Positions 41,086-45,818 of a DNA stretch of 64,000 bases are shown in pieces. The notes below the pieces were generated by a model that saw only the letters and a program-made list of their open reading frames with translations, had not been told where the DNA came from and did not search any database. Position 1 is the first letter of the stretch; each line of letters begins with the position of its first letter. Position numbers and translations under genes: made by a program. The stretch comes from Flavobacteria bacterium MS024-2A (GTDB lineage: Bacteria > Bacteroidota > Bacteroidia > Flavobacteriales > Flavobacteriaceae): NCBI GenBank assembly GCA_905182305.1, contig CAJJBB010000009.1:1-64000 (forward strand), read 5' to 3'.

Positions 41086-41512
41086 CTAAGCATTAAACTG
41101 TCTTAAGTGATGATGTAAATGATAGTTTGAAGTTTCATTCCATTGTGCTCGTGTTAAAAGGCCAAAATAAAAATGAGGAGGAAATTCTACTTTTTTAGGT
41201 GAATTAAAAAATAAAGTCATTTTTTCTTTTAAAAGGCGAATGTCATTTTGAAAGTTATGTAGGTTTAGTTCCTTTTCCAGCGACTTGATTTATGTCTTTT
41301 GGGGCTGGAACTGTTTTTCGTTCTTTTGCTAATATTAGCACTTCTTCTTTTGAAAGCTTAGGAGTTTCTGTTAGGGTAAGCTCCTCCGAAGCCATACGAT
41401 AAAAATCTGTGCAATGACATACCATTTGATGTACATTCATTTTACCATATTTTGCTTTATGATTTGGCGTTAAGCTATCTATACGCGTTCAAAAAGTGTA
41501 ATAATTTTTCAT
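41086..41512 (-). pseudogene. DUF1569/DinB-like protein with two lesions
   Basis: The start ATG at 41512 overlaps the symporter stop (ATGA), giving MKNYYTF, but codon 8 is TGA; the same frame then continues TRIDSLTPNHKAKYGKMNVHQMV. A second break lies at about 41255-41260: frame one ends GKGTKPT then TAA, while the next frame supplies NFQNDIRLLKEKM and the His-rich end YHLHHHLRQFNA (stop at 41086). Removing one base (CCT-ACA-AAC) repairs the latter. Restored it would be about 141 residues, a four-helix DinB-type domain. Real decay or sequence errors. Confidence 0.7.
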
Positions 41513-43170
41513 TCATTTTTAGTAGAAAGTGTTATTTGTAAAAGAAGTGCAAAAACAACTGTAAGTATAGCCCCAATTAAATTAAGCCATAAAAAGCTAA
41601 CCAAGTCATTTGAAAAAAGCAATAAAACAATTCCTTCTGAAATAATTGCTGCCCAAAAAACAGCATTTCCTTTCACATACTTTATGAAAATTGCTATTAG
41701 AAAAATTCCTAAAATTGTTCCATAAAAAACAGAGCCAATTATGTTTACCAATTGAATAAGGTTTTCAAATAAATTTCCAATACTTGCAAATAATATGGCA
41801 ATTATACCCCATAACAATGTAAATCCTTTGGAGACAGTTACATAATGTGCTGGTGATTTTTCAACAACATTTCTTTGATATAAATCAATTGTTGTTGTTG
41901 CTGCCAATGCATTAAGCTCTGAAGCAGTGGAACTCATTGCAGCAGAAAAGATAACAGCCAGTAATAAGCCAATGAGACCTGTTGGGAGATGACCTAAAAT
42001 AAATGAGATAAAGACATAATCTTTATCATTTGTTTCTAATGATGGATTCACTGACTTAATAAGGTTTTTAGCTTCTTGTCTTTGCGCTTTTTCAATTGTA
42101 CTAAGTTGTGTTATTTCTTCCTGAAAAGAAACACTTAAAGTCTTATTCAAAAGCTTTGTTCTTATTTCCTTTTGGGTAGCTTTATTTTTAAGTTCTAATA
42201 AATGGAAAGCTTCAGCTACTTCAGATTTTTTAACGGCAGCAATAGCTTTGGGATTAAAGTTTATTGGCGAAGGCTCAAATTGATAGAATATAAATACCAT
42301 GACCCCAACAAGGAGAATGAAAAATTGCATTGGAATTTTCAAAACACCGTTCATTACAAGTCCCATTTGACTTTCCTTTAAGGATTTTCCTGAAAGATAA
42401 CGTTGTACTTGTGATTGATCTGTACCAAAATATGAAAGTGCCAAGAAAAATCCTCCCGTTAAGCCACTCCAAAAGGTATACCTACTGTTTAGATTAAAGC
42501 TAAAATCAAGTACATTTAATTTTCCAGCTTTTCCTGCAATTTTAATTGCTTCATGAAAACCGATGCCTTCAGGGAATTGTTTAATTATAAAACCGAAGGC
42601 AAGAAACATTCCTAGAAATATGATAAACATTTGCTGTTTTTGCGTCACATTTACAGCTTTTGTTCCTCCAATCATTGTGTAGGTAATTACTAAACTTCCT
42701 ACAAGTAAAACCAATACTTTTAAATTCCACCCAAGCACTACACTTAAAATAATAGCGGGTGCATATATTGTAATTCCTGCAGCAAGTCCTCTTTGAATTA
42801 AAAACAATAAGGCGGTAAGGGTTCTCACTTTGAGGTCAAAACGTTTTTCTAAAAACTCATAAGCAGTGTAGACATTTAGACGGTGATATACTGGAATAAA
42901 AAACAAGCATATAATTAGCATCGCGAAAGGCAATCCAAAATAAAATTGAACAAAACCCATTCCATCATGGAAAGCTTGTCCAGGAGTTGATAAAAAAGTG
43001 ATGGCACTAGCTTGGGTAGCCATTACTGATAGACCTACGGTCCACCAACGAGCTTCATTACCACCCTTTAAATATTCTTTAATGTTTTCATGACTATTAT
43101 TTTTCCATATACCATAGAGTACAATAAAAGCTAAGGTTACGCCTAAAATGATCCAATCGAATATCTGCAT
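41509..43170 (-). CDS. Sodium:solute symporter (SSS family)
   Basis: Sodium-driven transporter, 553 residues, with about 13 hydrophobic helices and the family segment LTALLFLIQRGLAAGITIYAPA. An unusual soluble insertion (about residues 315-380, charged, helical) interrupts the helices. Its ATG overlaps the stop of a 28-residue membrane peptide (TAATG), and its stop overlaps the DUF1569 start (ATGA). Substrate unknown; the upstream PIG-L deacetylase suggests an amino sugar or sugar derivative, which is inference. Confidence 0.88.
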   Translation of the reverse strand: MQIFDWIILGVTLAFIVLYGIWKNNSHENIKEYLKGGNEARWWTVGLSVMATQASAITFLSTPGQAFHDGMGFVQFYFGLPFAMLIICLFFIPVYHRLNVYTAYEFLEKRFDLKVRTLTALLFLIQRGLAAGITIYAPAIILSVVLGWNLKVLVLLVGSLVITYTMIGGTKAVNVTQKQQMFIIFLGMFLAFGFIIKQFPEGIGFHEAIKIAGKAGKLNVLDFSFNLNSRYTFWSGLTGGFFLALSYFGTDQSQVQRYLSGKSLKESQMGLVMNGVLKIPMQFFILLVGVMVFIFYQFEPSPINFNPKAIAAVKKSEVAEAFHLLELKNKATQKEIRTKLLNKTLSVSFQEEITQLSTIEKAQRQEAKNLIKSVNPSLETNDKDYVFISFILGHLPTGLIGLLLAVIFSAAMSSTASELNALAATTTIDLYQRNVVEKSPAHYVTVSKGFTLLWGIIAILFASIGNLFENLIQLVNIIGSVFYGTILGIFLIAIFIKYVKGNAVFWAAIISEGIVLLLFSNDLVSFLWLNLIGAILTVVFALLLQITLSTKNE

Positions 43171-43256
43171 TAGTTATACATATTCATAAATTGATAAAAC
43201 ACTACCCAATACAGTAAGTTTATTACGATTAATAAAATATATGTAGATTTCTTCAT
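43170..43256 (-). CDS. 28-residue single-helix membrane peptide coupled to a symporter
   Basis: ATG at 43256 overlaps the PIG-L stop (ATGA) and its TAA overlaps the symporter ATG (TAATG). It encodes MKKSTYILLIVINLLYWVVF followed by YQFMNMYN: a short positive N-terminus and one membrane helix. Overlap at both ends, with no spare bases, argues for real translation. Small helical subunits accompany some SSS symporters, so an accessory role is plausible. No family recognised. Confidence 0.6.
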   Translation of the reverse strand: MKKSTYILLIVINLLYWVVFYQFMNMYN

Positions 43257-45710
43257 TGTCCATAAGAAATTATATTGGCAAACAATCTGTATGCCCCAGG
43301 AACTCCAGCAGGAAGTTGTCTAAAAAAACTAAGTCCTGTAAAAATAAATTTACCTTTTCCGTGATCTGCTACTAAAAGGCTTCCCTTTTTGGGAGTTTCT
43401 CCTTTGTCATTCATTGATAAAAGAGGTTCATACTTAGCATCCCATTTATTAGAGAAATATAAGCCACGTTCTTGAACCCAGCCATCAAAATCATTATCAG
43501 TAATTTTATTAGGTTTGTTTAAAAGTGGGTGCAAAGAGTTTAATAGGGTAACCTTTGAATTTTCATTTGTAACACGATCTCTATTGAAACTTATTGGATA
43601 TGGACCAGCTAAATCACTGTTAAATCCTCTACTGGTATTGTATTGTACAACCACTGTTCCACCTTGCTTAACATAATCCCAAAGTATTTGATTTTTAAAT
43701 GTAAGGTCTTTATGAACATTAAAAGCACGAATCCCTACCACTAGAGTTGGAAAGTTTATTAGACGTTCCAAACGAAGGTTGTTTATATTAAATTCTGTTA
43801 CTTCTATCCCAATATTTCGCAGATTTTCTGCTATTTTATCTCCTGCTCCTCTAAGGTATGCAATGTGATTTACATTTGTTTTAAGATCTATTTTAACAAC
43901 TTTTGTTTCATTGGGAGTTAATAAATATTGTTTTGAAATATGGGGGTAGGATATTTCGTTTAATTGCATATTATAATTCTGATCTCCTTGCGTTACAAGT
44001 GATGTAAATAGCCCAGTAGTATTTCCTTCTGGAGGGGTAACTTCAAAGATAAATTCTTGTGAAACCTCTGCCATGGGAATATAAAAGTCCTGTGATGAAG
44101 GACTGATTTTCCAGTATTTTGGGGTTGAAAGAGTCACACTTCCTTTTAAATTTTCAGTATGTGATGTGACAATTAAACTAACCTTTTTTGGAGTGTTTTC
44201 TTTAAAGAGGATTACCCGTTCATTAATTTGTGTGGTTATTTTAGGAACCAATTGAAAGTTTTCTACAACTTCACCCTTTACTCGATCCGTGGATCGGAAG
44301 GTGAGGGGAACATTAACTAAAATCAGATTACCATCTATATTTAATTCAAAAATAGCTTGAATAGGGTTAGGTGTTTCTGCTAATCCTTTTAAATCAGGAT
44401 TACTAACTTTATAGTTTCCTATATCTCCTTTTTCTATTAACCAATAAGGAGTAGTTTGTACTTTAGGTAGAAGTATAGACTTACTTTCTTGCCACGCTTT
44501 GTTTTCAGACAATGATTGCTTTGTGTCAAGATTTACTGCACCTACTATTTTCTCTATTGACACCTTAATTGGACTTGGATTTAGTGCTTTTAAAGTTATT
44601 TCGGTTAAAGTATTGGCAACACCTGTTGGTTTAGAGGTGTTGAATTGTAATCTAAGACCTAAGCAATATTGAACAAGGTTAGTCACTTCCTTGAGTTTTA
44701 CTGTGCGCCAATGGCCGGGTTTTAAAGCTTTAATTTTAGAGTGAATCTTCAATAATTGTTGGATACTTTTATAAGGTTTTTCAAAATTAAAATCAGCAAG
44801 TATCTCTTCAATAAGCAAGCCAATAGCTTTGCCTCCTTTCACTCTACTCCAGTTAGTATCAATTCCTTGAAAAGGATTGTTTTTATTCGGAATACTTCCG
44901 TTAATGAGTTCTAAATATTCTTCTTGACTTCCAAGGCCAGGTGAGCTTCCAAACCCCTGCGATTTATGCTGACTTCTACTTTTAGAAGCAATCTCAGCAT
45001 TCGAGCTACCTAATAAATTATTAATGGGATTACTTTCTAAAGTAATCATATTTGATTTGTCAGCATTTTTAAATTTTTCTCTACTACCATAAGCCCACCA
45101 TGAAGTATTATAAAATTGGCGTGTAGGTTGCCAAACAGCAACATCATTTAATTGCTCAGGATATGCTTTTGGATTGGCTGCAAGTGAAAAGGCCATTTCA
45201 CTTAAAATAGCAGAACTACTATGGTGTCCATGAGTACTTCCAGGAGTTCTATGGTCAAATCGATTAATAATAACATCAGGTTTAAATTCCCGGATACGAA
45301 ATACAATTTGTGCTAAAATCTCGTTTTTATTCCAAATTTCAAGTGTTTCATCAGGATGTTTAGAATATCCAAAATCATTAGCAGTAGTGAAAAATTGCTG
45401 TCCTCCATCTATTTTTCTTGCCTCTAAAAGCTCCTGTGTTCTTATGAGTCCTAGACTTTCTAGGAGTTCTGTTCCAATTAAATTTTGTCCCCCATCTCCA
45501 CGGGTCATTGAAAGGTAGGCTGTATTGTAATTGTATTGATTTGAAAATAACGAAATTAATCTAGTATTTTCATCATCAGGATGTGCTGCAACATATAGCA
45601 CTGATCCTAGAGTGTTTAGTTTTTGTATTTTTTTATAGATCTCTGAGCTACTTTGTCCACTAACAGAGGTTACAGCAATAATAAGTAATATGTATATTCT
45701 TGTGTTTCAT
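43253..45710 (-). CDS. PIG-L family deacetylase, large exported form (frame change in signal peptide)
   Basis: About 818 residues. The PIG-L metal-binding AHPDDE motif (VLYVAAHPDDENTRLI) lies near the N-terminus and HGHHSS further on; the C-terminal half is beta-rich with a terminal ThuA/glutamine-amidotransferase-like region (PTLVVGIRAFNVHKDL, VVQYNTSRGF). The frame containing AHPDDE can be extended back through IYILLIIAVTSVSGQSS, a clear signal peptide, but the ATG (MKHK, 45710) is in another frame; removing one base near 45695-45700 joins them. Expected activity is N-deacetylation of an amino sugar outside the cytoplasm. First gene of a coupled four-gene operon. Confidence 0.82.
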
Positions 45711-45818
45711 TGCGAATTATTTTATACAAAATAATTTAAAAAAACTTCTTCTACGAGATTTTTTAATTATCCTGTTTGGTAATTTAAGTGTTTTATTTTT
45801 TTTACTAAAATAAATGCT

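Follow-up and report, generated by a model that had tools for sequence, protein, structure and literature searches.

The 64,000-nt stretch of DNA from Flavobacteria bacterium MS024-2A that was analysed here, referred to as the window, belongs to a genome assembly with a completeness of 86.5%. On its minus strand, a short open reading frame (ORF) is stitched between two larger genes, and the features of this locus are as follows.

43253..45601, minus strand: deacetylase of the PIG-L type, C-terminally long (PF02585; ORF from GTG), the usual, non-constant upstream neighbour of the peptide gene
43253..43256, minus strand: ATGA, shared by the stop codon of PIG-L (TGA, 43255-43253) and the start codon of the peptide
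43170..43256, minus strand: gene for a single-helix peptide, 28 codons, conserved and selected in its frame, reading MKKSTYILLIVINLLYWVVFYQFMNMYN and a stop
43168..43172, minus strand: TAATG, shared by the stop codon of the peptide and the start codon of the symporter (ATG, 43170-43168)
41509..43170, minus strand: sodium:solute symporter (SSS/SLC5 type), 553 aa (PF00474 and TIGR00813), the usual partner of the peptide

The peptide is read on the minus strand from 43256 down to 43170 as MKKSTYILLIVINLLYWVVFYQFMNMYN followed by a stop, and the plus strand of 43170-43256 is interrupted by stop codons. An earlier note on this DNA had correctly placed an undescribed membrane peptide at 43170-43256 and was silent on the strand, which is the minus strand. 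The ATGA overlap with the PIG-L stop (43256-43253) and the TAATG overlap with the symporter start (43172-43168) that it described were both confirmed, and the N-terminus that it called lysine-rich amounts to two lysines (MKK). The neighbouring genes are also what the note took them to be. The upstream gene scores 49.1 bits against the PIG-L family PF02585 (cut-off 28.2), and the downstream gene scores 141.6 bits against PF00474 (cut-off 22.8) and 244.7 bits against TIGR00813 (cut-off 184), which makes it a member of the SSS/SLC5 family. A model of a relative of the window symporter (L061) has the SSS fold and aligns to the SiaT structure 5nva with a Z score of 44.0 over 470 residues at 2.4 Å. 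In the near-identical locus L009, the PIG-L gene opens with an ATG that in the window (45560-45730, minus strand) is out of frame with the remaining gene, and the window ORF is therefore listed only from a GTG past the signal-peptide-like stretch in this region. This may be due to a frameshift or an assembly error.

Hydrophobicity alone is weak evidence for a gene of this size, because 14 of the 169 ATG ORFs of 25-45 aa in the whole window reach a similar value. The earlier note had suggested looking for a conserved short helix upstream of the SSS genes of relatives. When the collection was searched with the window symporter and the best 80 of at least 570 relatives were kept, a homologous ORF of 28-44 aa was indeed found directly upstream of the symporter in all 80. 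In 74 cases this ORF was recognised by a text pattern and in 6 by eye, and those 6 align with the others. Among the 81 aligned peptides (80 relatives and the window), position 6 is Tyr or Phe in all 81, and Asn13, Tyr16, Phe20, and Tyr21 are conserved in 77, 79, 78, and 79, respectively. The family hallmark can be written as W(K)xxYxxVLxxNxxYIxxFYxxM/T, with the window peptide carrying a Lys at the leading Trp position. Using 16 ungapped members of 28 aa, we found a pN/pS of 0.32 in the peptide frame versus 1.01 and 1.27 when the remaining two frames are read, values that are pooled, uncorrected ratios of replacement to silent differences with nearly saturated silent sites. A 29-aa ORF in another frame (P0003, 43174-43263) has a similar sequence only in the near-identical L009, and with a pN/pS of 1.27 there is no sign of purifying selection on it. 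The peptide ORF itself behaves as a real, conserved protein-coding gene, and it stands out above chance because all 80 relatives keep it and purifying selection acts in its frame only. That it would be a hydrophobic frame open merely by chance where two genes adjoin, as the frequency of such ORFs in the window might suggest, is refuted by this conservation: homologs are in place in 80 of the best 80 relatives, as well as in all 100 loci of one set described below and in 38 of the 40 loci of another, and we give this explanation practically no weight.

To follow the peptide beyond the closest relatives, we used two profiles. The first, A1, was built from 53 peptides, all from Flavobacteriaceae. 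Among the 149 genomes of this family, it matches 142 at E <= 0.05, including 137 at E <= 1e-4; one of these strong matches (G137) contains an internal stop. Of 198 genomes of the phylum, 49 were matched by A1 at E <= 0.05; these 49 include 18 Flavobacteriaceae, and many of the others are marginal. Twelve of the weak matches outside the family were fetched (L112-L123), and 11 of them are followed directly on their 3' side by an SSS homologue that is 40-61% identical. At E <= 0.001, the second, broader profile, A2 (66 rows), finds the peptide in 127 of the 296 class genomes and in 89 of their 166 genera. The peptide family thus extends across many families of one class and also occurs in a second class of the phylum.

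The gene context of these matches was read in both directions. Starting from the peptide, 100 of the 142 Flavobacteriaceae matches were fetched, with the weakest mostly left out, and a symporter ortholog was found downstream in all 100. The distance from the peptide stop to the symporter start is -14 to +12 nt in 99 of these loci, and approximately 370 nt in the remaining one (L278). In the other families of the class, the symporter (46-57% identity) follows directly in 38 of 40 loci, representing 34 families; the two genes overlap by 4 nt in 30 of these 38, and there is one gap of 88 nt. The two misses are spurious matches inside ORFs of 421 and 640 aa (L342 and L343) that had been taken in as possible fusions, and reading through the matches and loci brought no natural peptide-symporter fusion to our attention. 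In Aquimarina, the gaps between peptide and symporter measure 54-72 nt.

Starting from the symporter, we took 54 distant symporter genes (55 loci, two of which are pieces of one gene), and a six-frame search supported an adjacent peptide in 39 of them (16 of 27 and 23 of 27). The E-values in this search come from a model that was grown from its own matches, with the symporter strand required and the position left unused. Nevertheless, all 43 matches that were added to the growing model fall within approximately 180 nt upstream of the symporter, and among the matches listed none on the opposite strand was below E 3. The other 15 symporters comprise two with a visible, weakly scoring peptide, five with an unsupported membrane ORF, five with a peptide elsewhere in the genome, and three with none.

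Absence was found to be shared as well. Of 12 Flavobacteriaceae genomes with an absent or marginal peptide match, 9 also lack a symporter ortholog at E <= 1e-30, two have a divergent peptide, and one, G060, has no peptide; G203 is a further genome without a symporter ortholog. The loci of the four other SSS genes found in the window genome and of three paralogs elsewhere gave no match to the peptide model. The gene 5' of the peptide, on the other hand, varies. It is PIG-L in most Flavobacteriaceae loci, other genes in Tenacibaculum and some Aequorivita (ORFs judged by eye), and a WbqC-like gene in another class (also by eye). We considered PIG-L as a partner and rejected it, because the upstream gene changes while the peptide still precedes the symporter. 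The peptide tracks the symporter, not PIG-L, and the "following PIG-L" part of the arrangement that the earlier note had included in its search is therefore incidental.

Since the reading frames overlap in the window (ATGA and TAATG) and 4-nt overlaps are common in relatives, the peptide ORF could be a cis-acting leader, the translation of which opens the start site of the symporter while the product is inert. An ORF that acts only in cis is expected to decay when it becomes separated from the symporter gene. Within one genus, four genomes have the symporter approximately 15 kb away from an intact peptide ORF, and these unlinked symporters are around 96% identical to the symporter of a relative in which the pair is linked. 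The four peptides were flagged by A1 at E 0.005-0.04, and the lower E-values obtained later come from a profile that contained one of them. In G381, the peptide and symporter are on different contigs, with the peptide frame intact and no symporter homologue within 8 kb around it. Thus, five genomes from two lineages keep both genes, with intact peptide frames, after separation, which indicates that the peptide is more than a leader peptide and that its product matters rather than the act of translating it. The amino acid-level selection, with its nearly invariant Tyr, Asn, and Phe positions, and the gaps in Aquimarina and L278 argue in the same direction. The leader explanation is therefore largely refuted, and we consider it very improbable.

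The converse situation, a symporter without a convincing peptide anywhere in the genome, was encountered in four genomes from three lineages (G060, G303, G354, and G380). The best whole-genome peptide match has an E-value of 0.0015 and an internal stop in G303, and E-values are 0.28 or worse in the other three. In the phylogenetic tree these cases sit among peptide-bearing symporters, with a support of 0.82 for G060, 0.99 for G303, and only 0.37 for the G354/G380 pair, which suggests that they are secondary losses. In G060, PIG-L and the symporter are both present with no peptide between them. This is the arrangement that the earlier note had named as evidence against its reading; it does exist, but it is rare and looks like a secondary loss. 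Two SSS paralogs of G031 (L129 and L131) fall inside the wider clade and have no peptide upstream. In another class, five genomes (L133-L137) carry, where the peptide would be expected, a membrane ORF that does not match the model, and whole-genome searches of three of them gave no peptide match at E <= 1; these ORFs could reflect either extreme divergence or an independent replacement. These exceptions imply that a putative subunit of this kind is not indispensable and that some lineages manage without the peptide family.

The same exceptions bear on the possibility that the peptide has another target in the membrane; it would then be produced and kept by selection, but merely co-transcribed with the symporter. 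Binding to the symporter is putative, there are four genomes with a symporter and no convincing peptide, and in five genomes the peptide is apart from the symporter, all of which would fit such a role. However, 38 loci representing 34 families keep the peptide beside the symporter even though the gene upstream of it differs, and peptide and symporter are jointly absent from 9 genomes. We therefore regard another target as improbable, and an action on the symporter as the preferred reading.

We compared the peptide group with known families. None in Pfam, NCBIfam, or the PDB matches it (66 peptides, with A2 used for the PDB). Weak database matches are scattered, with a best E-value of 0.0027 and none common to more than 3 of the 66 peptides, and we took them as chance; examples are YoaJ for the window peptide (12.7 bits versus a cut-off of 54) and a BCCT transporter for L059 (E 0.014). 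The NCBIfam model NF045580 (symport_access), with the product name "symporter small accessory protein", resembles the peptide in its size class (33 model positions) and, by name, in its type of partner. With its 35-bit cut-off, it matched none of the 66 peptides and nothing in the window genome at E <= 1, and none of the 198 phylum genomes at E <= 1e-4, while the control, Methanosarcina acetivorans, scored above the cut-off. DUF4212 (PF13937), the small partner of VC_2705-type SSS symporters, which are a different class of these transporters, is likewise a small membrane protein with a W-K motif before its first helix, but it is longer (79 model positions) and has two helices. The N-termini look alike by eye, but homology was rejected, as none of the 66 peptides matched at E <= 1 and hhalign gave a probability of 0.5-0.6, with a score of 10.1 that was exceeded by at least 10 of 40 column shuffles, up to 13.9. 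The window genome also encodes a DUF4212 protein (L357, G000:C10:103922-104152). Other small membrane proteins encoded beside SSS symporters are YjcH (DUF485) with ActP and YhdT (DUF997) with PanF; both are larger than the window peptide, and the 66 peptides gave no Pfam match to either DUF485 or DUF997.

Transporters can also be modulated by small membrane proteins such as AcrZ, KdpF, and MgtS, which are described in passages of two articles (PMC7267776, PMC10710835) and differ from our case in that they serve other transporter families. In the excerpts of these two articles, SSS proteins are represented only by SbtA, whose partner SbtB is a soluble PII protein, and no single-helix partner of a bacterial SSS protein is listed. 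A search of the open-licence PMC literature for this phylum yielded no article that deals with a small accessory protein of bacterial SSS symporters. Neither "subunit" nor "accessory" occurs in the main text of a review on prokaryotic SSS proteins (PMC7918813), nothing relevant was found in PMC6498577, and PMC11364881 gave two general passages only.

In 218 of 226 peptides, the part preceding the helix contains more Lys and Arg than the part following it, and because of this N-terminal excess the positive-inside rule predicts that the peptide spans the membrane once, with its N-terminus in the cytoplasm and its C-terminus in the periplasm. In an AlphaFold model of a joined peptide-symporter chain (L061), the 10-residue blocks of the peptide helix reached a moderate confidence of 73, 73, and 64, compared to 90.5 for the whole chain, and the helix was not confidently placed against the symporter, so that we took no docking site from this model. 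SSS structures (SiaT with Z 44, NIS, SMCT1, and SGLT2) match the joined model from residue ~34-45 onwards, and one from residue 78. By prediction, the symporter is thus a complete SSS fold without the peptide, and since these structures match the model without it, the peptide would be an added helix and not a missing piece. As for what is transported, the neighbouring PIG-L gene may hint at acylated amino sugars.

Coevolution was analysed with 220 pairs, which correspond to an effective number of 98 when 80% identity is applied. By one method, the leading inter-protein pair connects peptide M24 (and also F23) with symporter V220; when the 78,635 long-range pairs inside the symporter are scored, only 5 come out above the 24-220 pair. 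In a phylogeny-aware count, this pair showed 13 co-changes versus 3.6 expected (z 5.1), ranking seventh of ~18,000 pairs after six with smaller counts and higher z, and F23-V220 fell to z 2.6. As the 24-220 pair is not significant alone after ~18,000 tests, we rejected it as a docking site. Symporter residue 220 presumably lies in the periplasmic loop before TM6, going by the usual SSS topology, so that proximity to peptide residues 23-24 would fit the predicted topology, being on the same side as the peptide C-terminus, but this is only suggestive.

The closest parallel that we found is MAP17 (PDZK1IP1), which accompanies SGLT2 and SGLT1. The likeness consists of a single membrane helix that goes with an SLC5/SSS transporter, binding being putative in our case, and of a partner fold that the window symporter type appears to have in common with SGLT2, since the SGLT2 chain 8hez_A aligns to the L061 model with Z 37.3 over 496 residues (rmsd 2.8). 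The bacterial peptide differs in being shorter and predicted N-in/C-out, which is opposite to the orientation of MAP17. A2 matched no chain at E <= 1 in a PDB set that may or may not include MAP17, and no sequence relation to MAP17 was detected. According to passages of PMC10803289, the MAP17 helix contacts TM13 of SGLT2 and supports its activity, surface level, and thermal stability.

The earlier note had proposed an accessory subunit or stability factor of the symporter, and the linkage in 80 of 80, 39 of 54, 100 of 100, and 38 of 40 cases supports this, with binding or stabilisation itself as the inferred step. The peptide family is probably a small extra subunit of the symporter, because its gene is kept beside one sodium-driven transporter type in most Flavobacteriaceae and many other Bacteroidota checked. 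For the window, we think it likely that the peptide is a small integral membrane protein that serves as an accessory subunit of the SSS/SLC5-type symporter encoded directly downstream. We infer that the peptide is translated, binds the symporter at a docking site, and affects transport. As a result of the start-stop overlap, it would be made from the message of the symporter and, sharing this message, probably in near-equal amounts. It would most likely sit against the outside of the symporter helix bundle, and may help the symporter fold, stay stable, or hold an active state, as MAP17 does for SGLT2; a stabilising or activating subunit is proposed because MAP17 is a well-studied helper of the same fold and the peptide appears to be an added helix. 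The more detailed reading, that one Bacteroidota SLC5/SSS clade is a two-subunit transporter whose core is normally joined by a single-helix subunit, 28 to ~56 residues long and belonging to a family not yet described, an independently arisen counterpart of SGLT-MAP17 in which the C-terminal end of the helix touches the periplasmic loop before TM6, is one that we hold with middling confidence.

Instead of a structural subunit, the peptide could also bind the symporter as a regulator, i.e., an inhibitor, a modulator of the substrate range, or a protease adaptor, comparable to SgrT, AcrZ, or MgtR. Passages of PMC10710835 and PMC7267776 describe such small proteins in bacteria, and the genetics reported here fit any tight partner. 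The frequent overlap of the two genes (4 nt in 30 of 38 loci) suits a subunit in a fixed ratio more than a separately controlled switch, and we consider regulation rather unlikely.

The peptides add a protein family that is absent from Pfam and NCBIfam, in a size range that, according to the abstract of PMC7667032, is commonly omitted by annotation. In a ribosome-profiling study of Flavobacterium johnsoniae (PMC6847099), for example, annotated coding sequences were the units over which reads were counted. The accessory subunit reading suggests that SSS symporters from this phylum that are studied singly may lack their natural partner, which could explain failed expression or absent activity. 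The pair could also serve as a small bacterial model for the role of one extra helix on an SLC5 transporter, a question that SGLT2-MAP17 raises as well, and the split pairs and peptide-less symporters provide natural experiments. As a side observation, in a locus of the split-pair genus (L198, 31-2335) the stranded peptide gene lies, judged by eye, between a WbqC-like gene and a gene resembling an SLC13/DASS-type transporter.
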